A stretch of DNA of 45,877 nt. It comes from a virus. This document shows, one piece after another, positions 10,552 to 44,893 of this stretch. Position 1 is the first letter of the stretch; each line of letters begins with the position of its first letter. The DNA lies in IMG/VR virus record IMGVR_UViG_3300042988_000694, positions 1 to 45,877 of that record. One strand, written 5' to 3'. Both the position numbers and the translations under genes were made by a program. The notes below the pieces were generated by a model, which saw only the letters and a program-made list of their open reading frames with translations, did not search any database and had not been told where the DNA came from.

Positions 10552-11414
10552 CACTTCACCTCGTCGTTGAGGTTGCCGATCTTGTCGAGAAGCGCCCTGA
10601 GCCGGTCCAGCACGTCGTCGGGCTCCTTTGTCACCACGCCGCCGGTCTTCAGCGTTTCAATGTCGGCGCGGATCTTCGGAATGTCGTGCAGGACCTGGAT
10701 GACTGCGGGGAGCAGCTTTTCGAGAATGAGGAGAACGCTCGGGTTCATGTCCTGGCCTTCCGTGGTTGGCTTTGTTTTCCGGCTGTCGAGGAAGAAGATG
10801 CACATGCCCCCGATGATCGCCCACGGCAGCCAGGTCGACCCGACCAGGCCGGGGAGGTGCTTGCCGGAGAAGATCATGAAGGCAATGACGAGGGCCGCCA
10901 GACCGGGCGCGGACGTCCAGCCATCGGTCGCCGGCTTCAGGACGGGCGGGATCTTGATGGGGTCAGCCGGCGCCGGCTGCGTATCGAACAGCGCATAGAC
11001 CTGGCGGGCGTATTTGATTCGGAGATCTGGCTTGCGGCCGGCGGCGCTCGGGCGCTCGTAGATGTCGCAGATGTTGAGCGTCAGATTTTCCAGCGAGCGG
11101 TTGCCGGGGTTGACCAGCATCCGCCAGAGGCCGGGATAGTCCCGCTTGCACTCGTCCTTAAAGTACTGGACTTGGACGGGGAGCGTGTCCCAATCCTTGC
11201 GGCGCTGGAGCTCGTCGAGGCGATCGAGGCGCCATTGCAGCAGGCCGTCCGAGCCGTGATCTTTGGGGCCGGTGGTGATCGGCCGCATCAGGTTCTCTTG
11301 CCAGCCATTGCCGGCGACCGCCGCCGCAGAGACCAGCGGGAGGGGGTCAGCCCCCGACATGCACTCCCGCACGACGAGCCTGGCGTTTGCGAGAATGGCG
11401 TCCTTCGTCGTCAT
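10551..11414 (-). CDS. Endolysin: lysozyme-like domain fused to membrane spans
   Basis: The 287-residue product has an N-terminal lysozyme-like domain (about 5-140). Its pattern VSAAAVAGNGWQENL...GSDGLLQWRLDRLDEL matches the phage tail-lysozyme type, with Glu40 the likely catalytic acid. Residues about 166-210 contain two hydrophobic stretches (APGLAALVIAFMIF; LPWAIIGGMCIFFL), followed by an amphipathic, charged C-terminal part. A membrane-anchored endolysin differs from the usual soluble type and may need membrane depolarisation or a holin for release. An in-frame Met223 could give a separate small product. It overlaps the tail fibre gene by 4 bp. Confidence 0.65.
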   Translation of the reverse strand: MTTKDAILANARLVVRECMSGADPLPLVSAAAVAGNGWQENLMRPITTGPKDHGSDGLLQWRLDRLDELQRRKDWDTLPVQVQYFKDECKRDYPGLWRMLVNPGNRSLENLTLNICDIYERPSAAGRKPDLRIKYARQVYALFDTQPAPADPIKIPPVLKPATDGWTSAPGLAALVIAFMIFSGKHLPGLVGSTWLPWAIIGGMCIFFLDSRKTKPTTEGQDMNPSVLLILEKLLPAVIQVLHDIPKIRADIETLKTGGVVTKEPDDVLDRLRALLDKIGNLNDEVK

Positions 11415-13096
11415 AGCTCGGCCGTCGCAGACCAGTCGAAGGAATAGTAGTAGGCGACCTCCGTCGCGGTCACGACCGCCGAACGATCAGAATTGACCGC
11501 GACTGTCGCCGCCACATTATCAGTCCAGGAGCCGGAATATTTGTAAGACGTCTTCGCCGAAGTCCCGGCGTTGTCGTAAACCGTTACTGTTGGCGCCGAC
11601 CGCATGGTCATAGGGAAGATGATCGGGCTATTCTCCCCGGTGCAGCCGCCGAGGTTGCCGACCGTCACGGCGCCTGACCCGCCGGTGCGGGTGGCGCCGG
11701 GGACTGTCCCCTGGGGATAGCTCTTGGAGAAGAAGCGCTGGCAAAGGGACAGCTCGACCGGCGTCGGACGGCGCTCGGGGGCATAGTCTGCGGTCGCCCA
11801 TGCGCCGGGTCGCAGCTCGACGTCTGTGATGTCGTAATAGTCGTTTGCCCCAGCGGTCCCGCTTGGCGAGAAGGAGAAGCTGACGGCAAGCTGGGTGATG
11901 TCCGCCCCGATCGCCGCCTGTGCGCTGAAGACGGCAAAGTCCGTTCCGAGCGTCACAGTCCCGGTCGAGATTACGGTCTGGTTTGTCCAGGTCGACGCCG
12001 CCAGTGACGCGGCGCTCTGGTTCGTTCCCTTGCCTCCGACTACGGAGTAGCCCAGCGTGCCGCCGGAGAAGTCGGCGCCCTTCCGGGCCCGGAAGAACAG
12101 CGTGACCGTCTTCCCCTGCAAGTCGATGTTGGCGTCCGTCTCAAGCGGCTGCGCTAGGTAGACCGTCGGGGTCGCCGTCGTTGTCGAGACGCGCTTAACC
12201 CGGAGCGCATAGTTCACGCCGCCGGTTTTGACGGACACGCGCTGAGCCGAGAAGCCGCTGGCCGACGTCGAGATATACCCATACCAGCGATCGACCGTGT
12301 AGTTCGTCACGCCAGACGCCGTGGCAAGCGTCGCCGCCGCGCCGGCATTGCGCTGGTCGATCTCCATCCCGCCGTTGAACAGCCGGTTCTGGAAGCCCAT
12401 CGCGAACTGCGTCGGGTCGAGCGCCAGCGTGCCAGTAGTGGTGACGGCGCCACCCTTCAGGCCAAAGCCCGTCGCGACGCTCGTGACCGTGCCGCCGGTC
12501 GCATTGACGCCAGCCGGCCCGCGGAAGTTGATGGCCTGCGACCAGTCGTCCAGCGTGTCGGAGAGCTTCACGAACAGCAGCGGACGCCCCGAGGCGTCGT
12601 CGAGCTGGGCGAAGCGGAACCCCTTCGACTTGTCGCCCCACTGCGCGCGCTCAGATAGCGGGCCGGAGGCGTCGAACCCGAACGGCTGCGCCCGATAGCG
12701 GCCAAGCGTCGTCCAGAACTCACGCAGCGAGGACAGGACATAGCCGACGGTCTGGTTGAATTCGCGGCGGCCGATGCCCGGCGCCGTCGGCATGACGGTC
12801 TGGCGCGGGTGGATCTCGCCGTAGATCTCGACCGTGTCCGCCGAGATGGCGGGGGAGAACGCGACGCGGCCATCCGTGAGGGGCTGGGAGAGCGTGTTGA
12901 GAGGCGCGCCACTGGCCGAGACGAGCGCCCAATAGGCAGTATTCAGGTCGTCGCCATCCACGACCACCCGCAGGTCGCTCTGGTCCCCATAGACGGGGAA
13001 CGGCACATCGACGTAGCTCGTCGACACGCTCGCCAGCGAATATGAGACATAGCGGTCTGCGTCAGCGACAGGCGGGACGGGAGGCGGCGTCGACAT
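11411..13096 (-). CDS. Tail fibre with T7-like N-terminus and carbohydrate-binding-like C-terminus
   Basis: The 561-residue protein starts with a T7 gp17-like anchor region (about 10-150: YVSYSLAS, then DLRVVVDG, EIHPRQTV, GRREFNQTVGYVLSSLREF), which joins fibres to the podovirus tail. A short collagen-like GPAG segment and Gly/Thr-rich beta repeats follow. From about residue 240 (FQNRLFNGGMEIDQRNAG) comes a jelly-roll-like carbohydrate-binding-type domain, common in tail fibres, to the C-terminus. Unlike its neighbours it has no signal peptide, so it is the conventional receptor-binding fibre. It follows a 65-bp gap that contains one of the AGTGCGTCGC repeats. Confidence 0.75.
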   Translation of the reverse strand: MSTPPPVPPVADADRYVSYSLASVSTSYVDVPFPVYGDQSDLRVVVDGDDLNTAYWALVSASGAPLNTLSQPLTDGRVAFSPAISADTVEIYGEIHPRQTVMPTAPGIGRREFNQTVGYVLSSLREFWTTLGRYRAQPFGFDASGPLSERAQWGDKSKGFRFAQLDDASGRPLLFVKLSDTLDDWSQAINFRGPAGVNATGGTVTSVATGFGLKGGAVTTTGTLALDPTQFAMGFQNRLFNGGMEIDQRNAGAAATLATASGVTNYTVDRWYGYISTSASGFSAQRVSVKTGGVNYALRVKRVSTTTATPTVYLAQPLETDANIDLQGKTVTLFFRARKGADFSGGTLGYSVVGGKGTNQSAASLAASTWTNQTVISTGTVTLGTDFAVFSAQAAIGADITQLAVSFSFSPSGTAGANDYYDITDVELRPGAWATADYAPERRPTPVELSLCQRFFSKSYPQGTVPGATRTGGSGAVTVGNLGGCTGENSPIIFPMTMRSAPTVTVYDNAGTSAKTSYKYSGSWTDNVAATVAVNSDRSAVVTATEVAYYYSFDWSATAEL

Positions 13097-13148
13097 GGGC
13101 GGGCTGATCCAGGTTGCGCTTGCACGCTACGAACCAGCCCGCTCCCCA

Positions 13149-13158
13149 GCGACGCACT
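13149..13158 (-). repeat. AGTGCGTCGC leader repeat 1
   Basis: On the minus strand this 10-mer begins two bases after the stop of the 1224-residue protein gene, in the leader of the tail fibre gene. Identical copies are at 21515-21524, 32753-32762 and 36608-36617. Confidence 0.6.
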
Positions 13159-13160
13159 CC

Positions 13161-16100
13161 TTACGGCATTCCGTATTGGTTAACGGGGTAAGGATAGGTG
13201 TAAGGCGTATATGTCAGCGTATGCGTGCCAGCGCCGGAGGGCTTGGATGATGTGATGCTGTAATCAATATCCCCTTGCCCATAACCACCGCCAGAAACGG
13301 TGTGAGGGGTGCTTTTGAAGTAATTGCTGTTGTTGACCAAATTCACGCCCGTCGTATTCGAACACGTCCCGCCCGTCGTCTTACATCCCGCTTCCGGTCC
13401 ATTATGCCAAAGATAAAGCGGGAAGCTTGTCGGCTTGTTCCCAGACGTAATCTGAGAAAACGTCTTGCCGCCATTGCGCCCCATCTGCGTCAGGCATGGC
13501 CAGCCAGGCGCGCTTGCGTCTCCGGCATTGCCGTCCCAGGTTCTTGACCCTTGGCAATTAAGAAGTGGGTCGCCTGTCTGGGAATTGTCGTTGCGCGGGT
13601 CGCCAAACCTGAATGCGTCGACGGGCCAATTCACGATCTGGTTGTTGTAAAACAACCCAGTGCCGCCGCCTTGCAAACGAGATGGCGTCGTATAGCCATT
13701 GTCGGCGAACGTCCACGTAAACGTATTGCCGTAAACCTCTATCCATTGATGATTGATAGAGTTCCCGTTCGTCCAGTGGGCATAGATGTAAGCGTTCGTC
13801 GTCGTGTTATAGCGGAATACAACCCGCGCCCCTGTGTAATCCGTGTCGAGCGTAGCGGTCCCATACCCACTATCTAGACCTTCAAATGAGTTATCCTCGA
13901 CGTATAGGTTCTTTGCTCCACCCGGTTCGTAAGGTAGCCCTAGCGTGCTCGCGCCACCTGAGCGGTCTGCCGTGCATCCGCCAGGGTGCATCCAAGAGAA
14001 GTTATAGTGGCACCAATCCTCGTCCGTCACCATAGATGTAAAAATCTGAGCCTCTTTCAGGTTCACGAATTCGTTGTGGTCTATGAGACCATACAACGGC
14101 CCCCAGACCTTGATATTGCCTTCAGGGGCAGAATTTGGCGTATAGAAACGCATATGGTCAATTCTGAACGCCCCGCGCATTGTCGGAGACGACCAACCGG
14201 TGATTTGTATTCCCGCTGCCGTCGCAGACGTATTCGTTAGGCTTATACCAGAGATGCGGAAAACTGGATTGTTTGCCGCTGTTACCGTCACATCAAAAGC
14301 ATTGTTGTCCGAAAACGTGATGTTCGTCACGCCAAGCCCGGCGCCTTTGATAATCACGTCCGTGTCAGAAAACGACACGCTTGACATGGAGCATGTCCCG
14401 GACCCGATCTTTACCGTGTCTCCATCCGCGCTCGCATCAATGGCGTTCTGAAGATTAGTTGTAATGTTGCCAGAGCAGGCGACAGTCCGAACCGTCCCCC
14501 TGTCTAAATCAGTTCCACCGGACGGCTGGATTGACCAGACGAGTGTTGCCGACCCTGTGCCGGAGGCATTTGTCGCCGTGATCGTGGAGTTAAACGTGCC
14601 TGACGCAGATGGCGTGCCGGTGATCGCCCCCGTCGAGGTGCTTACACTCAACCCGGTAGGCAGGCCGGAAGCCCCGTAGCTCGTCGGTGTGTTCGTCCCG
14701 ACTATCTGATATGTCGTGATTGCAGACCCTTGCGTGCCGCCAGCGCTCAGAGATGACGTGATCGTCGGCTTCGCAGTTATCGTGACAACAAGCGTCTTTG
14801 TTCCTGTGCCGAAGCTGTTCGATGCAGAAAGGCCAGTGTTGAGTGTTCCTGTGCTCGTCGGCGTGCCGGAAATTAAGCCGGTTGTGCCGTTGATCGACAG
14901 GCCCAGAGGAACGCTGCTAGCGGCATAGGTTGTCGGGCTGTTCGTCGCGACAATCTGATAGCTAAATGGCGACCCAACGATACCGCTCGCCGTCCCCGCA
15001 GACACAATCACAGGCTTCCCAGAAAGAACATTCAGCGGTAGGACGGCCGATCCAGTCCCATAGGCGTTTGTTGCGGATATGGAGAGATTATAAGACCCAG
15101 CCGCCGTGTTCGACGCGACAGTGACTAGGCCGGTCCCTTGATTGATCGTAACGCCCGCAGGCAGGCCAGAAGGCAGGCCAGTGACATTGTAGCTGTAGGG
15201 ACTACCAGAAGCCTCCACCTGATACGTCGCAGACACGCCTTGCGTGACCGTCCACGTCGTTGTTGAAGAGGTGATAATCGGCGCGCCTGTGCCAACGGTC
15301 AAAGTCAGCGTCTTGCTTGGAGAAGTCCCCAAGCCATTCGTCGCCGTCATTGCAATGCTGTATGTCCCTACCGTCGTCGGCGTCCCGGAGAGGATGCCGG
15401 TCCCTGTGTCAAAGCTCAAACCTGCAGGGATTGGGGAAGCAGTAAAGCTAGTCGGAGCGTTCGTTGCCGAGATGGAATAGGAAAAGGCAGAGCCTTGGTT
15501 CCCAGAAGCCGTGAGGCTGCTGTTGATGACCGGCGCTGTGACCGTCGCCCCAGGCTTGGCCTTTAGCTCAAGCGTCTTCATCTGGAGCTGACTCCAGGGG
15601 AAGTGGATGAACTGGTTCGGCGTGCGGCAGGTCGATGACCAGAGCGGGTTTGCCCCGGCGCTGTAGCCGGTGACGCTCGCAACGCCGCCAACCCCACAGC
15701 CGTAAATACCGCCGTCTTTGATATACGGGTCAGGAGACCCATAAGGCGGGGTGAAAGTGTTTGAGGTATCGCCGCCGACAGTCCCATTGCCGCCGATGTT
15801 TTGAATGCGGATTGTCACGGCCCCGCCAAGGTCATTGACGATGAAACCGTAGTCTCGCGCCGCCTTCGCGAACATCTTGACAAAGTCCGACATATGAGCG
15901 CCGCCGCCATCCGTCCAGGCGTCAACGTCGAAATTGCTCGGCAGCCGGAAGATCGCCCCCTCCGGGATGCTCCAGGCGCTTGTCGACGCGCCATCGCTGT
16001 AATTCGCAATGGGGCCTGAAAAATAATCCTTCATGACTTCTGGAAGGATAATGGAGACCATATGCGGAATTGTCCCGCTTCTTAGTTCCTCGACAGTTGG

Positions 16101-16835
16101 CGTATAGCCGAGATGAGGGATTTGCGAACCAGTGACGCCAGGAGGAATGTCCTGGCCGCCGTAATATCTTATCCCATAAGTAGTGTATGCCGTGTTATTC
16201 GGCCAAATGCGAACAGGCTTCCAGGTGCCGTCGCTTTTGGACACATTGTCCATATAAGCCATATTGCATTGAGTGAAACGGTTGTTCGTCGCGTCCCAAG
16301 CAGCACCAGAGAATTCGTAAATGCGGTCTCTCGACCGATCCCAAACAACCGATTGATGGTCGCTGCCGTAGTCGATACCCCAGCCCTGCGGAGCATGGAC
16401 AGTCTGAGACTCTCTCTGCCACCACGCAGCAGCATTCACGCCATTGGCCGTAAGCGTGCTGCCGCATTGGGCTGTAATCGGCCATTTCGGGTCGTTCTCG
16501 TCAGCAACCCAAATCGGAACGGCATTCGCCTTCTCAGCGATAATGGCAAAGGGCTTGTCGCCAGAGCCGTAATCATACGTATTCATTAAATCGACGAGAT
16601 GCGAAACGTAGTTTGCCGAATTGGGATCAACCGTGAAGGCTTGCCCCTTTACCGTTCCCCAATCGTCAAGCTTAGTCGTATTCCACGCATCGCAGGCGTA
16701 TAGTTCGCACTTACCCGTTGTCAGCATTCCAGGTGAGCGCGGAATGCGCGGCCCAGTTGTCGGCTCATAGCCGCCCCAGAAAGCCGCTTGAGCAATCGCT
16801 GGGAGAAGAAGCAGGATAATTATAAGCTTTTTCAT
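13161..16835 (-). CDS. Secreted-type multidomain surface protein: Ig-like repeats and beta-helix
   Basis: The 1224-residue protein begins with a signal peptide (MKKLIIILLLLPAIAQA, cut near residue 17). Residues about 20-430 form a Trp/Cys-containing domain shared with the neighbouring 725-residue protein. About 434-770 are four Ig-like repeats of the He_PIG type (FSYSISATN..., GLS...TG.LSGTP...). About 775-1224 are a right-handed beta-helix-like region (GDTVKIGSGTC, NITFSDNNAF, LIDHNEFVNLK, YVEDNSFEGLD, VYGNTFTW) as in pectate-lyase-like depolymerases and tailspikes. AGGAAG lies 6 bp before the ATG. It lies in the receptor-binding part of the late operon; it may bind or cut host glycans. A leader peptide on such a protein is unexpected. 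Confidence 0.7.
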   Translation of the reverse strand: MKKLIIILLLLPAIAQAAFWGGYEPTTGPRIPRSPGMLTTGKCELYACDAWNTTKLDDWGTVKGQAFTVDPNSANYVSHLVDLMNTYDYGSGDKPFAIIAEKANAVPIWVADENDPKWPITAQCGSTLTANGVNAAAWWQRESQTVHAPQGWGIDYGSDHQSVVWDRSRDRIYEFSGAAWDATNNRFTQCNMAYMDNVSKSDGTWKPVRIWPNNTAYTTYGIRYYGGQDIPPGVTGSQIPHLGYTPTVEELRSGTIPHMVSIILPEVMKDYFSGPIANYSDGASTSAWSIPEGAIFRLPSNFDVDAWTDGGGAHMSDFVKMFAKAARDYGFIVNDLGGAVTIRIQNIGGNGTVGGDTSNTFTPPYGSPDPYIKDGGIYGCGVGGVASVTGYSAGANPLWSSTCRTPNQFIHFPWSQLQMKTLELKAKPGATVTAPVINSSLTASGNQGSAFSYSISATNAPTSFTASPIPAGLSFDTGTGILSGTPTTVGTYSIAMTATNGLGTSPSKTLTLTVGTGAPIITSSTTTWTVTQGVSATYQVEASGSPYSYNVTGLPSGLPAGVTINQGTGLVTVASNTAAGSYNLSISATNAYGTGSAVLPLNVLSGKPVIVSAGTASGIVGSPFSYQIVATNSPTTYAASSVPLGLSINGTTGLISGTPTSTGTLNTGLSASNSFGTGTKTLVVTITAKPTITSSLSAGGTQGSAITTYQIVGTNTPTSYGASGLPTGLSVSTSTGAITGTPSASGTFNSTITATNASGTGSATLVWSIQPSGGTDLDRGTVRTVACSGNITTNLQNAIDASADGDTVKIGSGTCSMSSVSFSDTDVIIKGAGLGVTNITFSDNNAFDVTVTAANNPVFRISGISLTNTSATAAGIQITGWSSPTMRGAFRIDHMRFYTPNSAPEGNIKVWGPLYGLIDHNEFVNLKEAQIFTSMVTDEDWCHYNFSWMHPGGCTADRSGGASTLGLPYEPGGAKNLYVEDNSFEGLDSGYGTATLDTDYTGARVVFRYNTTTNAYIYAHWTNGNSINHQWIEVYGNTFTWTFADNGYTTPSRLQGGGTGLFYNNQIVNWPVDAFRFGDPRNDNSQTGDPLLNCQGSRTWDGNAGDASAPGWPCLTQMGRNGGKTFSQITSGNKPTSFPLYLWHNGPEAGCKTTGGTCSNTTGVNLVNNSNYFKSTPHTVSGGGYGQGDIDYSITSSKPSGAGTHTLTYTPYTYPYPVNQYGMP

Positions 16836-16850
16836 GGATGCTTCCTGCCG

Positions 16851-19028
16851 TCAGTTGACCGTGAGGGTCAGCGTCTTCGTTCCTGTGTATCCAAACGAAT
16901 TAGTCGCAGAGAGAGTAATGCTTGATGTCCCTGCCCCGCTCGGTGTGCCAGAGATGACACCAGTCGACGTGTCAATTGAAAGACCGGAAGGAAGGCCAGT
17001 TGCGCCATATGTTGTTGGCGCTGCCGTCGTCATGTAATTGCCAGTTATTGAATAGGTGAAAGATTGCCCAGCCGTTCCTGTTGCGGTCGTAGCCGACGTA
17101 ATAACCGGGTCTGCGTTGTAGCGGTTCGTCGTGTCGCGGCGGTCGTAGCATGTCCCGATATAACTGCTTCCGACTGACCTGTTCGGGTCGCCCAATCCTG
17201 TGTAATCAGCGCAGTTGCAACGCGGCTTCTTGTAGGTATTGTTCATGTCAAGTGAGACAAGCTGTAAGGCCCATATCGGGAATCTGCCAAGCTCACTGCC
17301 ACCACCAGCGCCGGGAGCGCCTCTATGCGTTCCGGTGAAAATCCCCTTCCCATCACGTTGGAAATAAGGGTCTCCCGGCAAAAGGTCAGGGTATTGATTA
17401 TACGATGATATGCTTGAATAAGTGTATTGACCGGTGTAGTTGTCCTTCCTCGCGATGATCTCGTTATAAGCCGGGTTCCCGTTGTAATCTATGACGCCTT
17501 TGAACCCAGGATTTTGCAACCGGATATTCCAGTTTGAACCTGTGTCATTTATTATCAAACCATAGTCGCGAACGGCCTTCATAACCGTTTTGACCCATTT
17601 CGCTGGCGTGCCGTATCCTCCACCCGTCCCATAAGGATGACCAACGTCAATTGTTCCGCCAATATAATTATCAATGACATCATCTGTCCACACATCCGGG
17701 TCGAGACGCATCCGCGAGCCAGTCGGCACGGAGCAATCAGACCATTTCACATTACTTGTTACGTCTAGCTCGGAATGGCCGTGAAAATCCTGTTTCGTTG
17801 CCGGATATGAACGGGCTTGATACCCACTCCCTTGCGGGCCTTCATATATTTCAGGGATAACCAAGCCAATCGCGTGCTGTATACTCCCGGCTTGCAATTC
17901 AGCAACCGACACAGCAGTCGCCATGGCGGGCGTGCCGCCGGCATTCGTTCCGCCAATATCGCCACTCGCCCCAGCGTTTGAAGCGCGCGGGTCAGCAGAA
18001 AAGAACGTCTGCGCGTAAGCGTTAGCAGCTTTATTTACAATCCCATCCCAGGCAGATGCGTTGTCATAAGACGCGCCGTAGTTCTGAGTTGGAGCCGTTT
18101 GGTCAACAACAATCGGATAACCTGATTGGACCCCGGCAGTTGTATCAATTGGGTCTCCACCGGGGGTCGCAGAGATTTCAAACGACGTTTCCGTAAAGCC
18201 CTGCGAACTGATGTAATACTCCGTCCCCTCGACAATGTTTGTCGGGAGATCGGCATTCGGCGTTAGGATTGTGCCGCCTGTAGTCTTGGTTAGGTTCTTC
18301 GCGATGAAGTGGACGACATCCCCAACCTTGAATTTATGTGCGACGGGCGTGTTGTTTACCGGCTCCAGCGTCGTAATCACGCCAGGGTTGGCGCTCGTAA
18401 TAGACGCATTCCAACCCCATTGCTGAAGATGGTAAAACTCAAAATAGCGATCCTGCACCGGATCATACATGGCGGTAATGCCGTCGATGCCAGGGTCTCC
18501 GCCATAGTTTTTACCGCCCCCAGGAACAGGGACATTCACAAATTGCGTTCCCTGCAATGTCACAAGCTTACAGTAAAAGCCATTTGGATCGTTGTTTGCA
18601 GCTTGCCAATCGGCCTGACATTGGGCTGGATACTTATTATAAATAAGCATGTCCCTTGTAGGGTCGCCGCCTTGGGCGATATACAACGCCGTGCCGTTAA
18701 GAATGTATCCGACAAAACTTGGGTTTTTGTTGCCGTTGCTGCCGTAGCGGGACTTGGCCATACTCTCGAAATGAGACGCCCACCCCTTAGTGTTAGGCTC
18801 TATGTGCTGGCAGTTCGAACCCCTGATAACGTTCCCGTCGCTATCCTCGCAATTCGGTAACATCTTGGTCGTGTAGATGGACCCGCGCTTAAATGGATAC
18901 CCGTCTTTGACGATGACGGTTCCCCAGCCGGAGTTCTCTTTTTTCCCCCAAAGCGCGGACGCATCTTTTGCCGCCATAGCGAATGGCAACATCATTACTG
19001 CAAAGAGAGCGATTGTGCCTTTGCGCAT
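16851..19028 (-). CDS. Secreted-type surface protein, paralogue of the 1224-residue protein
   Basis: The 725-residue protein starts with a signal peptide (about 1-26: MRKGTIALFAVMMLPFAMAA). Its large domain matches the next gene's N-terminal domain in motif order: VAELQAGSIQHAIGLVIPE against VEELRSGTIPHMVSIILPE, AVRDYGLIINDTGS against AARDYGFIVNDLGG, and FPIWALQL against FPWSQLQM. About the last 85 residues are one He_PIG Ig-like repeat ending at the C-terminus, without a beta-helix. Several Cys residues suggest disulfides. It begins two bases after the stop of the gene before it. The shared domain resembles a widespread family of secreted bacterial proteins of unknown or glycan-related role; this is inference. 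Confidence 0.65.
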   Translation of the reverse strand: MRKGTIALFAVMMLPFAMAAKDASALWGKKENSGWGTVIVKDGYPFKRGSIYTTKMLPNCEDSDGNVIRGSNCQHIEPNTKGWASHFESMAKSRYGSNGNKNPSFVGYILNGTALYIAQGGDPTRDMLIYNKYPAQCQADWQAANNDPNGFYCKLVTLQGTQFVNVPVPGGGKNYGGDPGIDGITAMYDPVQDRYFEFYHLQQWGWNASITSANPGVITTLEPVNNTPVAHKFKVGDVVHFIAKNLTKTTGGTILTPNADLPTNIVEGTEYYISSQGFTETSFEISATPGGDPIDTTAGVQSGYPIVVDQTAPTQNYGASYDNASAWDGIVNKAANAYAQTFFSADPRASNAGASGDIGGTNAGGTPAMATAVSVAELQAGSIQHAIGLVIPEIYEGPQGSGYQARSYPATKQDFHGHSELDVTSNVKWSDCSVPTGSRMRLDPDVWTDDVIDNYIGGTIDVGHPYGTGGGYGTPAKWVKTVMKAVRDYGLIINDTGSNWNIRLQNPGFKGVIDYNGNPAYNEIIARKDNYTGQYTYSSISSYNQYPDLLPGDPYFQRDGKGIFTGTHRGAPGAGGGSELGRFPIWALQLVSLDMNNTYKKPRCNCADYTGLGDPNRSVGSSYIGTCYDRRDTTNRYNADPVITSATTATGTAGQSFTYSITGNYMTTAAPTTYGATGLPSGLSIDTSTGVISGTPSGAGTSSITLSATNSFGYTGTKTLTLTVN

Positions 19029-19030
19029 CT

Positions 19031-20029
19031 TTAATTCCCTTCGCAGTCGGTGCCGTTTCCAGCATCACGCGCTGCATTGACGAAAGTCGCGTCTTTTAAC
19101 GAGTCATAGACGCAGAAGAGTTGGAGCCATCCTCCGGTATGGAAGGCATAAGTTCCCGGCGCATAGGAGGTTCGCGTGACAGTTCCCGTCGCCTCGTCCT
19201 TCCATTGCTCCATCGTGTAACCAACGCTCATCCAATAGGCGAGCGTCGAGTCAGCGCCTAGAACGTCTGCGTGTCGTGTGTTGGTCGTGTTGCCTGAGTT
19301 GTAGATTGGCGACGTTGGGTATGTCCCGACCTCCTCCTGGAAGTAATCGACTGCCCAGCTATTAGCTGCCGCCGTAACATTGTAGAAGCCGAAGGCCGAA
19401 TTGGTTACACTCTCATAGGTCGCCGGTTGACGATAGCGAACCCAGGAACCCGTCGTGGCAGTAGTTAGCGCCGTAGACCCGTTGTTATTCGTTATCTTTA
19501 GGTTGTTCGCCCCGGATATGCGCTTGGCATAGACCGTCCCAACACGGTTCGCCGCCGCGAGGGTAACCGTCTGCGTGAGCGATCCGTTCGCCGTGGAGCT
19601 TGTGATTGACGACGCAGAGTTGGCAACGCCATCAACTCCGGTCTGGTCCTTGGCTCGCGTGAAGTTCGAGACGCCCCATGTCAGCGTCATGTTTCGATTA
19701 TATTTGGCGTAGTTGATCCGCTCTTCTTCGAGAAGAAGCCCGAGCGCAGTCCCTACGCTTGTGAAGTCGTAATCAAAGCGCGCCGCGCCATTTGAAGCGA
19801 CAAGCTGCACAAGCCCGGAAGAGTCGACATATGTCGCGACTTGGGCGCTGTCAGCACGCGAGAAGGTGAAATGCCCGTCAAGAGAACTTGTGGTGAGGAA
19901 GTCCTGCGAAAACGCCACGGCAGGCGGGGCTGTGTAGCTGTTCGACCCGACGCCAGTTAGAAGCATGGTGGCATAGACGGGGGAGCAGATGCTCCCCCCT
20001 ATCAGTCCAGCGATAGCAAGCCGCTTCAT
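19031..20029 (-). CDS. Secreted-type phage-tail carbohydrate-binding-like protein
   Basis: The 332-residue product begins with a signal peptide (MKRLAIAGLIGGSICSPVYA). The rest follows a well-known phage surface pattern: FTFSRADSAQV, then RFDYDFTSVGTALGLLLEEERINYAKY near residue 90, and WAVDYFQEEVGTYPTSPIYNSG near 225-245, typical of beta-sandwich carbohydrate-binding modules in tail proteins. The ATG at 20029 was chosen because the signal peptide begins there; a GTG at 20041 would add four residues and overlap the upstream stop. It is read in series with its signal-peptide neighbours. Confidence 0.6.
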   Translation of the reverse strand: MKRLAIAGLIGGSICSPVYATMLLTGVGSNSYTAPPAVAFSQDFLTTSSLDGHFTFSRADSAQVATYVDSSGLVQLVASNGAARFDYDFTSVGTALGLLLEEERINYAKYNRNMTLTWGVSNFTRAKDQTGVDGVANSASSITSSTANGSLTQTVTLAAANRVGTVYAKRISGANNLKITNNNGSTALTTATTGSWVRYRQPATYESVTNSAFGFYNVTAAANSWAVDYFQEEVGTYPTSPIYNSGNTTNTRHADVLGADSTLAYWMSVGYTMEQWKDEATGTVTRTSYAPGTYAFHTGGWLQLFCVYDSLKDATFVNAARDAGNGTDCEGN

Positions 20030-20037
20030 GGCAAGCC

Positions 20038-21468
20038 TCACTTATAGGCGGCCGAGAGGAAGACGCCGGTTGCGGCGCTGGTGTTATCGTTGCTCGCAGA
20101 GCCCGCCGTGATGCAGAAGCCGATCCCTGTCGAGAAGGCGATCCCTTGGTTGACAGTGACCGAAAGGCCGTTGCCGGTAGCCGACGCCGGAATCGGATAT
20201 TTCAGTTTAAGGCCAGTTGCAGAGGAGCATGTCGGGCCAGAGGCCGTGTCATAAATCCGCAGATAGTAAAGCGTGCCTGTCGTGTTGACGGCGGTGATAT
20301 TGTAGAGGTTCCCAGCCGACGCCTTCATGCTCGTCGAATTGTTGCTGGCCGCCGAGTCGTATGTGTAGGGCGTCGCGCCGCCTGTCGTGCCTGCAATTGT
20401 CTGGACGGCGTTGGTCGTGCCGGGCGTCGTCTGGTCGATCCCGACCTTGCCCATTATTTCCGTGCCAGCGTCGATGCCGACCGAGCCGATATGGTTCGTT
20501 CCCGCCGGGGCAGGAGCCGAAGCGTTCTGGTTCATCCTCTTGAAGAGGGCGATGAGCGAACATGTCCCCGTATCGGAACCGCAGGCGGCGTCGGCCGACA
20601 AGCCAATGTCGCCAACACTCGCAATGCTAGCCGCAGTCGACCCGACCGCAAGCCCGGACCCGCTCTGCACATTCAGGGTCGTCGTCCCGCTGGCCGTGAT
20701 AGCCGCGATGTAGCCGTTTGAACCAACGGCAAGCTCTACCCATCCGAAATTGGGAGGGACAACTAAATCAGAAGTCGTCGCCTGCACGCTGTTGAGCGTG
20801 CCCATTTTCACATAAGCAGCAACACTTCCTAGGTTCGTAATGATGATATTCGCGCCAGCCGGGATAGCCGCGTTCGTCGTCGTCGTCGTGGCGGAAATGC
20901 CCTGCGAAAGGCCGCTCGGGACGAAGTTCGTCAGCGACGTCGGGCCGCCGCCCGCGACGACCGCGCCACCAGCAACACCAGACGCAAGGCCGGAGCCGCC
21001 CTGAATATTGAGCGTCGTCGTGCCGCCGGTCGAAATGCCCGCGATATAGGTGTTACTCCCTACGGCAAGCTGGACCCAGCCATAGTTCGGTGGAATCGGG
21101 ATGTTGCTCGTCGTCGCCGTAATCGAGTTGCTGGTCCCGAGCGCGACATACGCGACGTTGGATCCGATGTTTGTGATGATGATGTTGGACCCGGTCGGCA
21201 GCGCGACGTTCGACGTCGTGGTTGTGACCGAGAGACCGGCCGAACTCCCGTTCGGGGACCACGCAACAGCCGTCGACCCGCCAGCGGAGATCGTGTTGGC
21301 GTTGACGACATACAGGTCAAATGGACCGGCGCCAGTCCCGCTTTCATCCCAGAAGGCTTGGCTGTGCGTGCCGGACCCGTCTTGGATCGTGCGATAGACG
21401 ATCTGGCCATCGGCAAGAGCGTTGGAAGCCCAGAACAGGGCGAGAAAAATAGAAAGTATCCGGCGCAT
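20038..21468 (-). CDS. Secreted-type repeat protein
   Basis: The 476-residue protein has a signal peptide (MRRILSIFLALFWASNALA) and Gly/Thr/Ser/Asn-rich beta sequence. Two tandem modules of about 90 residues are evident, from about 70 to 255: each contains a TTTTSN or TTTTTN run, then NIIITN(I/L)GS, a SN or SD strand, PP(N)YGW(V)(Q)LAVGSN, and TTTLN(I/V)Q(G/S)GSGLA. The remaining half is unrelated. A strong AGGAGG precedes the ATG by 5 bp. It is the first of the four signal-peptide genes after the internal virion proteins. The function is unknown; repeat architecture fits a fibre or surface protein. Confidence 0.65.
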   Translation of the reverse strand: MRRILSIFLALFWASNALADGQIVYRTIQDGSGTHSQAFWDESGTGAGPFDLYVVNANTISAGGSTAVAWSPNGSSAGLSVTTTTSNVALPTGSNIIITNIGSNVAYVALGTSNSITATTSNIPIPPNYGWVQLAVGSNTYIAGISTGGTTTLNIQGGSGLASGVAGGAVVAGGGPTSLTNFVPSGLSQGISATTTTTNAAIPAGANIIITNLGSVAAYVKMGTLNSVQATTSDLVVPPNFGWVELAVGSNGYIAAITASGTTTLNVQSGSGLAVGSTAASIASVGDIGLSADAACGSDTGTCSLIALFKRMNQNASAPAPAGTNHIGSVGIDAGTEIMGKVGIDQTTPGTTNAVQTIAGTTGGATPYTYDSAASNNSTSMKASAGNLYNITAVNTTGTLYYLRIYDTASGPTCSSATGLKLKYPIPASATGNGLSVTVNQGIAFSTGIGFCITAGSASNDNTSAATGVFLSAAYK

Positions 21469-21524: not shown

Positions 21525-24500
21525 TTAGGGTTCCCAGGTTGGGTTCTGGTTTCGCGTGGCAGGCAAGCCGAGCGTGTTGGCCGTGCCGTGTTCGACCTGG
21601 TCGAGCAGCCGACGGAAAGCCCACAGGTTCTGGCCGGGGAGTATCCGGCGCAGATGATGGAGATCAGCGGCGTTGAATTGTCCCTCGACGGCATGGCTGG
21701 CAGCGCCAAGTCCGCCTTCAAACAGCGAGAAGCTCGGCCCCGCGAGCTCGGCAAGCTTCGAGTTGTTCGACCGGCGCGTCAGCGGACGATCTGCACCGAT
21801 CATTCGGAAGACGTCGGCGCGGCCGCCAGACCATTTCGCCCCGACCTTGTTGATCTCGCCGAACCAGCCCATCAGCGAAGCCCGGTCGATCGCCTCCTTG
21901 GCCCAGTCCTGCGGGCGATCGGACGGCGGCCTGCCGCTGGCAAGCGAATACATGCCGTAGGAGACCGCTCCCATGCCAAGCGCCGTGATGACGCCCTGGA
22001 CGGTTCGCGCGTCACGCTGCTGTAGGTTCGCCATCATGACGCGCTCGTGGGCGCCCATCATGAACGACTTGAACTGGCCGATGACCGAGCCGACCGGACT
22101 AGAGACCCACAGCGCCTTGTCGCCATGGCCCGGCGTCGTAACCAGGATGTCGACCTCCCGGTGCATGGCAGTCTCGAACACGCGGCGCGCCTCGGCATCT
22201 TCCCAAGCCCCGGCGTTGGCGAACCGGACGCCGTCAACATCCTGCCCATGCTTGTCGATCAGGGCGGCGATCTTGCGCGCCATCGGGATCGGGATCGAGG
22301 CGTCGGCCATCTTGGCGATGTCGGCCTTGGTCCCCTTGCCCGCGGCGATGCGCTTCGCCACCCGGCCGAACTCCGCTTGCGCCGGGACGAAGGCCCACGT
22401 CTTCGCCATGTCGGTCCAGGGGCCGAGCCCATTGACCAGGTGGAAACGGTCAGCCCCGTAGGACAGCCCGCGCGAGAAGGCGTTGCCCGGCCGCGCGTTG
22501 GAAACGATGTCCTCGAAACGGTTGCGGGCCAATCCCAGCGCCGTCTCGACGCCGATCCCCGCCTCGCGGGCCTGGCGCTTGGCGACCTTACCGATTTCGG
22601 CCCCGGCCAGCGACTTCACGAACGGCGCCCACTGGTCATGGAAGACGTTCATCAGCCCATGGCGGAAGACGGCTTGCACGCCGAAGTCGGTAAATGAGTT
22701 AATGGCCGCGCCGCCGAGAGAAGCCATCGACGTCACATTGCGCAGATCGCGGGCGATGTTCTGAGCGTTCCGGCCGGACAGATCGCCAGTGAACCCGTAG
22801 ACGTTGCGGATCTTGTCGCGCATCGCGGCGATGTCGGCGATGTCGGCGTCCATAGCGTTGCGCAGCCGGACGCGCTCTTTCTCGCTCGTCGCCGCGGCGA
22901 TCTTGGAATTGTATTCCTCCATGATCTTCTTCATGGAGCTTTCCATATTCACGTCGCCGAAGCGGCGGGTCAGCTCAATGTCCGGGAGCATCGTCCGCAG
23001 ATGCGAGGTGATAACGTGCTCCATGTCGCGCTCGACGAAGTCGCGGACCAGTGCGGTCGGGATCGCGAAGTCGCGGGAGTGGAGAGATCCACGCTCGTCG
23101 CCCTTCACCATTGGCCCCGTCATCGTCGCCTCGTCATAGGCGAAGCGGCCATCGGGCGTCCCCAGGATGCGGTCGATGATCTGCTGCGCGCGGGAGCCAA
23201 GCTCGTCAGGCGTGTAATCCTGCTCGCTTTCAAGCATCCGGCGAACGGCGCGGTCGACTGGCTTGTCGGCAGACCCCATCCGCCCAGGCTCGGCCCGCCG
23301 GCCCATGACTGCATCACGTTCGGCAGCGGCTTGCGCCGTATCGCGGGAAGCGATTGCAGAAATGGCCTCAGCGCTCGACTTGCCCTTCCAGTTCTTAATC
23401 TCGGCCTCTATGTCGCCGCGCACATCGTCGCGCATCTTCTCGGCAAACTGCTTAGCATTAGCTAGCATGTCCTGCATCAGCTCTTGGCGAGCGGCGCGGT
23501 CCTCTAGTAAGCGAATGCGGCCCTTTGTGCGGCTAGCGGCAACGCCAGCCTCTTGGGCGCGCGCACCCTCGCGGGACAAGGCCGCCTCACGGCCGCGGCG
23601 GTTTGCTAGCGCCCGGTCGATCAGATCAGAAACGGCGCTTCTTTCTTCCTGCCTACCCGCGAGCGCCGCTTCCGCGTGCGGCAATTGCCGGGCGGCCTCG
23701 GCCTTTTCCTGTAGCCTTTGCAATATCAGAGGATCGCCGCCGCGAATTCCTTCCGCCGCCTCCCGCAAGTTTTTCGGGCTTATGCCCAGCTCATTGAAGA
23801 GATCTCTGAAGTTTTCGGCGTCTTGCTCAAGACGGAGCCGATCTTCGCCAGCCCACCAGGAGGGCGGATGGCCGGCTTCTGCATCTCTGATAAACGAGAG
23901 AACCTCATCAGGGCTGGGGCGCCCTTCCGGGAACGCTTCCGGGAAATCGTTGGCTAGTTTCTCGCCCCAGTCATCGAGGCCGCGGCCGGTTTTGCCGATA
24001 AGATCGCGTTGGGTGCGAATTAACCCTGGCATCTTCTTGCCGCCAAGGATCGCCTTTAACTCGCCATCCGCGCCAGAAATTCCCCCTTCTCGCGCCAGCC
24101 ATGCCGTGAAAGAAGGAATATCGGGAAGCTTGCGTTTGCCGATGGCAATCTCTGCCGCCTTCCGTGCGGCGCCATAAAAGGCTTCACCTACTTCTTGCTT
24201 CTCAAGGCGCGCCAGTTCCGCCGCCGAAATCGGCTTGGCTTCGCCGCGCAGAGCCCGGACCTCGTTCTGTAGATCGTTCAGGCGCTCAAGACTCTGCGGA
24301 TCTTTTAACTCCCCGCGCATCGCGCCGATGAATTCCTCGACCTCACTAATCGCATCCCGGATGTCGCCAGCCCTTGCCTGGAGAGCCTCTTCGCGCGGGA
24401 CCGCCTGCTTAGCCTCTTGCGCGCGCTCGTCCAGGCGCGTCGCGGTTTCCTGCATCTTCGATTCGATCGTGTCGATGCGGCCTTGTAGCTTCTCTACATG

Positions 24501-25922
24501 GTCGTCGAGATGGGTATGCTTCTCGTTGAGAGCCGCCAAGCGCTCCTTCGCGGCGGCCTTCTTGACCTGCTCGTCGCCGAGCCATTTCGTGATGACGCCC
24601 TTGAAGCGCGGCATGTCGGAGATGATGGCGCTATGGTTCCAGAGGCGCGAGATGAACGAGGCGTCTCCATTCGGCTGGGCGACATCCGGGTCCAGCAGCG
24701 GCGTGCCGTCCTCGCGCTTCGTGTTCTTGGCGCGCTCGGCCAGCGGCTCCAGGATCTCGGAGCGGATCTGGCGTGCCGCGTTCGCGACCTCCGGAACCTG
24801 CGACTGGTCGCCGGAATACATCGCATCGAAGACGGCTTCCTTGAAGTCGTTGAAGTCGAGCTTCCCGGCCGGCGTCGCCCCGCGCCACGAGTCGAACGCC
24901 GCCCGGCCCTTTGCCAGAACTGGAGCGTTCGCGCCCTCGTAATAGTGCTGCTTCCAGGAGTCGGTCAGGATCTCCAGGTTCCGCCACCCGAGCTTCGCCG
25001 ACTCCATATTGTTGACGGTCTCGATCGCCCCGCCATAGAGCGACTTGACCTCGCCGGCCGCCTCGCCTTCCGTGCGGCGAGTGACAGCGACCAGCTCGTT
25101 CAACAGCCGGCGCGCCTCTACGCTCTCGCCGCCCATGACCCGCGCGATCGGGCTGAAGTTCCGCGACAGGCGATCGACCGGGCCGGTGCCGATCTGCTTG
25201 AGCTGGCGTGTATCCGCTTCGGCCGCCGACAGGCTCGCCTCCGGAACGCCATCCAGAACAGGGCGCCGCATCTCGTCGAAGCCCTTCTCCGCGGCAGCGC
25301 GCTCGGCCGGCGTGAGCATCCCCAGAGCGCCCCCCAGCACCCCGGAAAGAACAGCGGCAGACGCCACGCCTTGCAGCGCCTCTTCTGGCGTGCGCGTGAC
25401 CTGGCTCGCGTATAGGGCGCCTTCCGAGACGCCGGCCTGCAATACGCCAAGAGCGGCGGTCGTGGCGGCCGAGCGGATGACGCCCCCACCAAGGCCGACG
25501 AACGGGATGAAGACGGTCGGGTCGACCAGGCCAGCGCCGACAGCGGCGGCAACGCCAGGCCATCCAGCCCCCGCCAAGGTCTGCCGGTCCTTATTCTCCT
25601 GCTCCCCGCGCGCGAGCATGTCACGCGTCGTCGCCTCGTTCGGGCTCGACAGGAACATCTCAGGGTGCTGCTCGGCCCATGTCCCCTTGATCGTCTCAAG
25701 TGGGTTGTGCTCAGGGTCGAACTTATTTTCCGGCCGATCGCCCAATAGGCTCATCGCGCCGTAGATCCAGTTGTTCTGCCGGAACGCCGCCGGAACGGTC
25801 TCGGTCATGAAGTCCGGCTTGAACTCCGGGACCTGCGGACGGTCGACGCCAAGCGGCGCGCGGAAGGGCGACAGCGGCGCGTCCTGCGTCAGCGGATCTT
25901 GGCCTTCTTCGAAAAGCGGCAT
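21525..25922 (-). CDS. Large internal virion (ejection) protein
   Basis: The 1465-residue protein fits the large internal core protein of podoviruses that is ejected into the cell with the DNA. A Gly/Ala-rich hydrophobic segment lies near residues 115-170 (GVAAAVGAGLVDPTVFIPFVGLGGG). A very long charged, helical region (about 440-900) is probably coiled coil. The C-terminal third is helix-rich (for example SSPVGSVIGQFKSFMMGAHERVMMANLQQRD) and recalls the end of N4/T7-type internal proteins. No enzymatic motif is seen. Three bases separate it from the tail-lysozyme-type internal protein, as expected of the two-protein ejection pair of podoviruses. Confidence 0.7.
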   Translation of the reverse strand: MPLFEEGQDPLTQDAPLSPFRAPLGVDRPQVPEFKPDFMTETVPAAFRQNNWIYGAMSLLGDRPENKFDPEHNPLETIKGTWAEQHPEMFLSSPNEATTRDMLARGEQENKDRQTLAGAGWPGVAAAVGAGLVDPTVFIPFVGLGGGVIRSAATTAALGVLQAGVSEGALYASQVTRTPEEALQGVASAAVLSGVLGGALGMLTPAERAAAEKGFDEMRRPVLDGVPEASLSAAEADTRQLKQIGTGPVDRLSRNFSPIARVMGGESVEARRLLNELVAVTRRTEGEAAGEVKSLYGGAIETVNNMESAKLGWRNLEILTDSWKQHYYEGANAPVLAKGRAAFDSWRGATPAGKLDFNDFKEAVFDAMYSGDQSQVPEVANAARQIRSEILEPLAERAKNTKREDGTPLLDPDVAQPNGDASFISRLWNHSAIISDMPRFKGVITKWLGDEQVKKAAAKERLAALNEKHTHLDDHVEKLQGRIDTIESKMQETATRLDERAQEAKQAVPREEALQARAGDIRDAISEVEEFIGAMRGELKDPQSLERLNDLQNEVRALRGEAKPISAAELARLEKQEVGEAFYGAARKAAEIAIGKRKLPDIPSFTAWLAREGGISGADGELKAILGGKKMPGLIRTQRDLIGKTGRGLDDWGEKLANDFPEAFPEGRPSPDEVLSFIRDAEAGHPPSWWAGEDRLRLEQDAENFRDLFNELGISPKNLREAAEGIRGGDPLILQRLQEKAEAARQLPHAEAALAGRQEERSAVSDLIDRALANRRGREAALSREGARAQEAGVAASRTKGRIRLLEDRAARQELMQDMLANAKQFAEKMRDDVRGDIEAEIKNWKGKSSAEAISAIASRDTAQAAAERDAVMGRRAEPGRMGSADKPVDRAVRRMLESEQDYTPDELGSRAQQIIDRILGTPDGRFAYDEATMTGPMVKGDERGSLHSRDFAIPTALVRDFVERDMEHVITSHLRTMLPDIELTRRFGDVNMESSMKKIMEEYNSKIAAATSEKERVRLRNAMDADIADIAAMRDKIRNVYGFTGDLSGRNAQNIARDLRNVTSMASLGGAAINSFTDFGVQAVFRHGLMNVFHDQWAPFVKSLAGAEIGKVAKRQAREAGIGVETALGLARNRFEDIVSNARPGNAFSRGLSYGADRFHLVNGLGPWTDMAKTWAFVPAQAEFGRVAKRIAAGKGTKADIAKMADASIPIPMARKIAALIDKHGQDVDGVRFANAGAWEDAEARRVFETAMHREVDILVTTPGHGDKALWVSSPVGSVIGQFKSFMMGAHERVMMANLQQRDARTVQGVITALGMGAVSYGMYSLASGRPPSDRPQDWAKEAIDRASLMGWFGEINKVGAKWSGGRADVFRMIGADRPLTRRSNNSKLAELAGPSFSLFEGGLGAASHAVEGQFNAADLHHLRRILPGQNLWAFRRLLDQVEHGTANTLGLPATRNQNPTWEP

Positions 25923-32752: not shown

Positions 32753-32762
32753 GCGACGCACT
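32753..32762 (-). repeat. AGTGCGTCGC leader repeat 3
   Basis: On the minus strand this 10-mer starts inside the TAG stop of the 425-residue surface protein gene and lies about 32 bases before the tail-adaptor ATG. Confidence 0.6.
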
Positions 32763-34038
32763 ATTTACCCATCACCGTCCAATTCGAGCCGTTGCAGTTG
32801 ATCGTGTAATAGGTCGACCCCCCGCCGGCGATGTTCGCGCCCCAGGCGATCGCGCCGGCGCCATCCGTGACCGCCCAGATGCGGCCCTTGTCCGAGCACG
32901 ATGACGATCCCCCTAGGCCTGTCGCAAAGGTTGTCGGAGTGACCTTGGCAAAGGTTGCCGACGTTATCGAGCTGCCGGAAGTTATTGGGCCAGTATCCGT
33001 TGCGAACCCACCAGACCCATTGGCGAGAACCTGCCCAGTTCCTTTTGGGTTTAGGTTCAAATTGATGTTAGTGCTTGTCCCTTCGACGCCGACGATCGGG
33101 TTAGATGTCGCCGCATTGAGATACAAATAATCGTTCGCAGCGCTACTGGAGACATTAAGGCCAGAGTTTATCGAGCGAAGCTGTAAAGTTTGAGCGTTCC
33201 CAGAGCCATCTCTATAATTCAAATTTACAAATTGCGACCCAACATTTGATCCAGCCGTCGCAAATGCCCCAACATTGAGTGCATTCACCACCGCGCCATC
33301 ATCGGTGATGAACCCATAATTCCAGTATGCCGTTGATCCCGCCGCGCGAGAAAGCTGCACGCCGTTGGCGTTTGCCTGCGTCCCGGCCCCCTGGATGATG
33401 AACGCCGCGCCTTCGATTGTTGAGGAGCCATTTACTTCAAAGTCGGCTTCATACCCGATGCACTTGCGGCCAGATAGCGTCGCTGCGCCATTGGTCGTAT
33501 TATCATCGCAGGCTGTATTGAGCCCCCACGTCGCCGCGTTGTTAACGGCGTTCACGCCGACAACGTAAAGACCAACGGCATTCTTCTGGTTCGGGGCGGT
33601 TCCTTGCGCGACGTTGTTATACGTATAGGCGTCATAAGCCGCGCCGCCTTGGACTGTCGAGCCGACGCCGATGTCAAGCACGCTGCGCGTAACGCCATAG
33701 AAGTAATAACCAGCGGGAATTATCGGGCTGTAGATCTGCGCTGCCGTCTTCGATGTCCGCTGGGCCAGCATGACCGATCCATCGCCAGTTAGGGACGATG
33801 ACAGACCAGGCAGAAGCGCGAACGTACCGATGTTCGACGACCCCAAGAGCGCGACGTTGCCGCTCAGATTGACCACATTCAGGAGTGACGCTTTCTTAGT
33901 CGCGCCCGATTGCACAACGGGGATGAATTCTGCCCCCGTCAGGGTCGTCGCCCGCGGCAGGTTGGAGATCGTTGTCGTCAACGATTGAGCGGAGGCAGGA
34001 ACGGTCAGCGCCAAAAGCGCCACGGCAATCTTCTTCAT
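32761..34038 (-). CDS. Secreted-type fibre-like protein in the capsid/tail region
   Basis: From the ATG at 34038, the 425-residue product starts with a signal peptide (MKKIAVALLALTVPASAQS). After it comes SNLPRATTLTGAEFIPVVQSGATKKASL, a common tail-fibre/appendage opening, then Gly/Ala/Asn/Thr-rich beta sequence and a C-terminal WAVTDGAGAIAWGANIAGGGSTYYTINCNGSNWTVMG, all typical of phage fibre proteins. The longer frame upstream (to 34140) is terminator and small-gene sequence, so I rejected it. It lies between the terminator after the capsid cassette and the tail adaptor. It is one of the five signal-peptide fibre-like proteins of this phage. Confidence 0.65.
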   Translation of the reverse strand: MKKIAVALLALTVPASAQSLTTTISNLPRATTLTGAEFIPVVQSGATKKASLLNVVNLSGNVALLGSSNIGTFALLPGLSSSLTGDGSVMLAQRTSKTAAQIYSPIIPAGYYFYGVTRSVLDIGVGSTVQGGAAYDAYTYNNVAQGTAPNQKNAVGLYVVGVNAVNNAATWGLNTACDDNTTNGAATLSGRKCIGYEADFEVNGSSTIEGAAFIIQGAGTQANANGVQLSRAAGSTAYWNYGFITDDGAVVNALNVGAFATAGSNVGSQFVNLNYRDGSGNAQTLQLRSINSGLNVSSSAANDYLYLNAATSNPIVGVEGTSTNINLNLNPKGTGQVLANGSGGFATDTGPITSGSSITSATFAKVTPTTFATGLGGSSSCSDKGRIWAVTDGAGAIAWGANIAGGGSTYYTINCNGSNWTVMGK

Positions 34039-44569: not shown

Positions 44570-44893
44570 ATGCGAAGATTGATTATCGTGCTCGGGGTCG
44601 TGGTCGCTGGGCAGGCGATGGCGGGAGAGCCGCTCGGAATTCCGGTTTATCCGCAGCCAACCCTACCAAAGGGAACCCAGTGGATTGGGGAGTCCACGCC
44701 GTCAGCGTCGAACTGTATCGACCCGACCATGGACCCAAATCACGGATGCGTCGTGAAACTACCTGAATTCAAGACGAACTGGAAACTTCTTATCAGGATG
44801 AAGAATGGCGATGTAAGCCTAATCAAAGACCTGACGAAGAGTGAATGCGAACGCGCCAAATTCCGAATCGAATCCGCCGAATGCTTCGAATAA
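44570..44893 (+). CDS. Secreted protein with signal peptide
   Basis: The 107-residue protein has a signal peptide (about 1-18, MRRLIIVLGVVVAGQAMAG) and a mature part of about 89 residues with four Cys residues (NCIDPTMDPNHGC; SECERAKFRIESAEC) that could form disulfides. It is the last gene before the composition of the sequence changes at about 44.9 kb. AAAGGA lies about 8 bp upstream. Like the 2649-2888 gene, it could be a lysogenic-conversion protein. Confidence 0.6.
   Translation: MRRLIIVLGVVVAGQAMAGEPLGIPVYPQPTLPKGTQWIGESTPSASNCIDPTMDPNHGCVVKLPEFKTNWKLLIRMKNGDVSLIKDLTKSECERAKFRIESAECFE

Follow-up and report, generated by a model that had tools for sequence, protein, structure and literature searches.

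Leader-bearing genes in a phage late operon

The window analysed here is a whole 45.9-kb IMG/VR virus record from a temperate, soil-type phage of the podovirus type. Its plus strand carries an integrase, a RecE-like exonuclease and a repressor, and its minus strand a late operon encoding the portal, major capsid protein, T7-type tail tube proteins, internal virion proteins, ejection protein, T7-type tail fibre and tail lysozyme. Four consecutive genes of this operon had been predicted to encode fibre-like proteins with Sec signal peptides (SPs) and to occupy the interval between ejection protein and tail fibre. All four open reading frames were found at exactly the predicted coordinates and in that interval, on the minus strand and packed almost gap-free. 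The features discussed below are as follows.

11411-13096, minus strand: T7-type tail fibre without SP (PHROG 4492); N-domain homologous to SP-carrying fibres of relatives
13161-16835, minus strand: SP-bearing protein, 1224 aa; four He_PIG Ig-like domains; 14 Cys
16851-19028, minus strand: SP-bearing protein, 725 aa; one C-terminal He_PIG Ig-like domain; 8 Cys
19031-20029, minus strand: protein with borderline SP, 332 aa from the ATG (336 aa if from the GTG at 20041); 2 Cys in the mature part
20038-21468, minus strand: SP-bearing protein, 476 aa, first gene past the ejection protein; two repeats, then a jelly-roll-like C-terminal domain that carries a cysteine pair; mature part with 4 Cys
21525-25922, minus strand: ejection (internal virion) protein, 1465 aa (PHROG 342/16310); no SP, 0 Cys; anchor for locating relatives
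32761-34038, minus strand: fifth SP-bearing protein, 425 aa with 4 Cys (PHROG 32740, tail fiber); its gene lies between those of tail tube A and the major capsid protein

Signal peptides were called with a home-made scorer that combines a cleavage-site matrix, the hydrophobic core and the charge of the n-region; the matrix is approximate, and the scorer recovers 26 of 26 known E. coli SPs. The original prediction gave a clear signal peptide to all four cluster genes. Three indeed have a strong Sec SP (MKKLIIILLLLPAIAQA↓AFW, MRKGTIALFAVMMLPFAMA↓AKD and MRRILSIFLALFWASNALA↓DGQ, with the arrow at the predicted cut), and the gene starting at 20029 has only a borderline one (MKRLAIAGLIGGSICSPVYA↓TML). 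A fifth SP, again strong (MKKIAVALLALTVPASAQS), was found in the gene at 34038-32761. The basic n-region, hydrophobic h-region and A-x-A-type cut are clear in the three and in the fifth protein and borderline in the one, and this architecture is all that the leaders share, their sequences being unlike. None of the core head, portal, tail, tail-tube and internal virion/ejection genes of the window passes the scorer. Outside the late operon, the plus-strand cluster at the right end of the window (44570-44893) holds a small exported-looking protein of 107 aa with 4 Cys (MRRLIIVLGVVVAGQAMA↓GEPLG).

Hydrophobic N-termini may be merely SP-like, by chance or through an artefact of the start codon, and a borderline call in one of four genes, along with the 7 of 234 non-gene ORFs that pass a loose cut-off, fits such a reading. 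Against it, Shine-Dalgarno-like sequences lie upstream of the ATG at 20029 and of the starts from which the 476-, 725- and 1224-aa proteins are read with their SPs. In six reference phages (T7, BPP-1, lambda, P22, Mwe-JY08 and S2B), whose ORFs of 150 aa or more number 175, the same scorer flags a single SP protein, lambda lom, which is truly exported. The SP clusters of many relatives, the cysteine correlations and the purifying selection on the fibre SP, all presented below, speak against it as well, and we regard it as very improbable.

The Ig-like domains of the original prediction were borne out by Pfam, with four He_PIG copies in the 1224-aa protein and one in the 725-aa protein. The predicted beta-helix and carbohydrate-binding domains received no confirmation from Pfam, although the C-terminal part of the 1224-aa protein reads like a beta-helix. 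The 725-aa and 1224-aa proteins have an N-terminal region in common, for which no relatives in Alphaproteobacteria were found outside the Ig domain, and the 332-aa protein is homologous to an SP-bearing 'tail protein' (PHROG 5939) of the related loci L053/L054 and to Synechococcus phage tail proteins. No Pfam or PHROG match to a Lom-type outer-membrane beta-barrel domain was obtained in any of the four proteins. The T7-type N-terminal tail-docking domain is likewise missing from the four genes, its profile matching only 11411-13096 within the window, and no internal promoter above chance was found in the gene-packed late structural operon.

Cysteine content and the case for export

Periplasmic proteins fold with disulfides and their cysteine numbers tend to be even. 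Among plus-strand ORFs with any cysteine in the viral-contig loci, even counts were found in 47 of 49 SP-bearing but only 231 of 501 SP-less ORFs (p=5e-13, an optimistic value since related proteins are not fully independent, though the families are diverse); a first count had given 51/55 versus 348/721. In the window, the five SP-bearing proteins have 14, 8, 2, 4 and 4 cysteines after the leader, in the order listed above, and the three internal virion proteins have none in 2,758 residues.

The cysteine pair in the C-terminal domain of the 476-aa protein gave a second correlation, being present in 14 of 14 SP-bearing homologues and in 0 of 14 SP-less ones (p=5e-8), where nine of the 14 SP calls pass a stricter cut-off, five pass only with a relaxed cut-off or a moved start codon, and all 14 SP-less homologues fail even the relaxed cut-off. 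With the nine strict calls only, p = 1e-6. The nearest cultured homologue of this domain in the phage collection, from Caulobacter phage S2B, lacks both the SP and the cysteine pair and thus fits the rule. A model of the domain looks like a jelly roll of the nucleoplasmin type, but no structural match was significant, and for this reason we assign it no function.

Judged from sequence, export and oxidative folding of the SP-bearing proteins is the best reading of these data, and very probably the correct one. The original prediction had pointed to the paradox of virion-type proteins with Sec leaders and had named export among its solutions; cysteine parity and pairs strongly support the export and back the paradox along with it. 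It had also proposed that the leaders have another use, as hydrophobic N-terminal peptides for anchoring in the particle, and to this trimer assembly may be added; Sec export would then play no part and the cysteines would oxidise outside the cell. Disulfides could indeed arise in virions, which are extracellular, and fibres generally dock via N-terminal segments. However, the leaders vary in sequence yet keep the n-region, h-region and A-x-A-type cut, and they accompany disulfide-type cysteine patterns, whereas SP-less homologues in the same virion position have neither an even-cysteine bias nor the cysteine pair. Because SP-less fibres are equally extracellular once released, late oxidation alone does not explain the cysteine difference, and these fibres manage without any such peptide. 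An anchoring role is therefore improbable in our view; it and the chance reading were both rejected on the cysteine and homologue evidence.

Relatives and their tail fibres

Relatives were collected as 52 viral loci through the C-terminal domain of the 476-aa protein and 61 through the ejection protein. Many of those that are GC-rich hold SP genes within the structural operon, with eight at L023, seven at L030, four at L002, directly after the capsid gene, and five or more at L046. No larger cluster was encountered than the eight genes of L023, which lie within 20 kb of phage sequence, and the same match came from two metagenomes (L023/L027). In L002 the four SP genes occupy the slot that holds the fifth SP-bearing protein in the window, between capsid and tail tube A; L007/L008 have two or three there. 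A related phage with the same gene order, which the original prediction had suggested looking for, was found in L046, where the ejection protein is followed by consecutive SP-bearing genes, one of which encodes a homologue of the 476-aa protein and another a T7-type fibre with SP that ends in a Peptidase_S74 chaperone. No match was obtained with the 725-aa protein in viral and genome contigs, in one search with the ejection protein alone as query, or among isolated phages with the SP-bearing fibre and the 725-aa and 476-aa proteins.

We then compared the tail fibres themselves, by means of a profile for the N-domain of T7-type fibres that included the fibre of the window. About 16 SP-less fibres start at the domain or within about 16 residues of it. 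In 20 non-identical SP-bearing fibres, including those of Bradyrhizobium prophages, the signal peptide ends within a few residues of the N-domain start (junction ...GLAPAFA↓QAPPPVPALPDTERR), and within a few residues of the point where the SP-less homologues begin. A signal peptide, which would not be expected on a T7-type fibre, is thus absent from about 16 of the relatives and present in about 20. The SP-bearing fibres cluster on the tree, with two label changes versus 12 expected by shuffling, and purifying selection acts on their SP region (median dN/dS 0.40, compared with 0.30 for the N-domain). Several occur in named Bradyrhizobium genomes, 12 of 266 genomes of the genus giving a match, and four whole Bradyrhizobium genomes have one fibre of T7 type each, only the SP-bearing one.

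An AlphaFold model of the SP-bearing N-domain (mean pLDDT 75) was searched against the PDB with Foldseek. N-domains of T7-type fibres, from structures of virion tail complexes, fill the first 18 ranks (LME-1, E 1e-4; HRP29, T7 gp17, Kp9, Kp7, PhiM1 and others), of which only LME-1 falls below E 0.001, with a consistent ranking. The first domain of the SP-bearing fibres is thus predicted to fold like the virion-bound part of T7 gp17. Their C-terminal ends are ordinary fibre or tailspike modules, such as the S74 chaperone at L046 and tailspike PHROGs at L108; another SP-bearing relative, L129, has a weak pectin-lyase match. In the SP-bearing fibre of one Bradyrhizobium prophage (L145), the docking domain stops after about 25 residues and other sequence follows instead.

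Virion membership and a possible assembly route

The docking domain in the relatives, the position in the operon and the lack of a second fibre suggest that the exported proteins are virion parts. Since the window's four proteins have no tail-docking domain, the case for their membership is drawn from their place in the operon, from domains that tail proteins also have and from analogy with the relatives, and it is weaker than for the relatives themselves; the window's own SP-less T7-type fibre counts against it. On balance we consider it fairly probable that the four genes and the fifth (32761-34038) encode exported, periplasm-folded appendages of the tail-fibre or adhesin type, which would join the tails at lysis.

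Alternatively, and as the main rival reading, the SP-bearing proteins may be exported and never enter the virion, working as adhesins or glycan-degrading enzymes in the periplasm, or outside after lysis or via a host outer-membrane secretion system, just as Lom acts in the host envelope. The cysteine parity and pairs support real export here too, lambda Lom is an exported protein amid tail-fibre genes (PMC12309495), a normal SP-less fibre is kept in the window, and the pectin-lyase match of L129 would suit a secreted enzyme. Against it stand a signal peptide on the tail-docking T7-type fibre of about 20 relatives, the sole such fibre found in four whole host genomes, genes packed into a late structural operon that has no internal promoter above chance, and domains of the tail-fibre type (S74, tailspike PHROGs), and we think it unlikely. 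The leader on the relatives' fibre suggests that an exported virion fibre is likelier than the secreted non-virion factor that the original prediction had put forward.

For exported virion appendages, we infer from the sequences a course in which the proteins would be synthesised with cleavable Sec signal peptides and translocated into the periplasm in the late phase, where signal peptidase would process them and folding with disulfide bonds would follow. Heads and tails would meanwhile be assembled in the cytoplasm. Membrane breakage by holin and endolysin would then bring the finished fibres into contact with the tails, to which they would attach, leaving disulfide-stabilised receptor-binding, glycan-binding parts on the particle. 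Joining at lysis would be the simplest route. Classical work showed that T4 and P22 accept fibres or spikes in extracts; we know of no precedent for a fibre folded outside the compartment in which the tail forms. We are evenly divided on whether this constitutes a second assembly route in tailed phages, in which receptor-binding fibres routed through Sec would fold and be oxidised in the periplasm and would meet the tails made in the cytoplasm only once lysis mixes the two compartments.

T7-type tail fibres have the same gene slot after the ejection protein, an N-domain homologous in the window's SP-less fibre and the relatives' SP-bearing ones, and a predicted fold that matches T7 gp17, LME-1, Kp9 and other virion-bound fibres. 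Known T7-type fibres, however, lack two traits of the SP-bearing ones, namely a Sec leader of the cleavable type at the start and a high, even number of cysteines. Free tailspikes, the released capsule depolymerases, are leaderless and freed by lysis in the known cases; the beta-helix or glycan-active tailspike modules (PHROG tailspike matches at L108) resemble them, whereas the proteins here bear export signals. Lom, an exported outer-membrane protein encoded among the lambda tail-fibre genes (PMC12309495), is similar in its signal peptide and its place in the tail-fibre region of the late operon, but is a single host-membrane beta-barrel, whereas several fibre-like proteins stand in a row here and in relatives the fibre itself is SP-bearing. 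Exported phage endolysins that use the host Sec system, such as fOg44 Lys44 and the SAR endolysins of P1 and phage 21 (PMC6116005), take the same route but are lysis enzymes, neither structural nor receptor-binding, and SAR signals are uncleaved. Lom and the exported endolysins are the nearest precedents, neither of them a fibre, and the literature searched, in which few subscription papers were covered, held no report of Sec-exported tail fibres, an absence that is not proof.

In textbook tailed phages every part of the particle is built in the cytoplasm. What is seen in the present phage and in its relatives, some of them prophages of Bradyrhizobium, a symbiont of legumes, suggests that some particle parts pass through the cell envelope. 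If true, tailed-phage assembly would be split between two compartments, with lysis as an assembly step, and receptor-binding proteins would have access to disulfides and to the folding helpers of the periplasm; this would also account for a class of 'secreted' phage genes. In annotation pipelines, late-operon genes with a signal peptide should then not automatically be taken for morons or lysis genes. The proposal is testable in Bradyrhizobium lysogens, which are cultivable and non-pathogenic. One SP-bearing Bradyrhizobium-like prophage (L133) lies on a contig binned to an actinobacterial (Salinibacterium) MAG, probably a binning error. At L131, directly after the SP-bearing fibre and on the opposite strand, lies the gene of a 765-aa membrane protein (12162-14459, minus strand), perhaps a lysogenic surface-modification gene.
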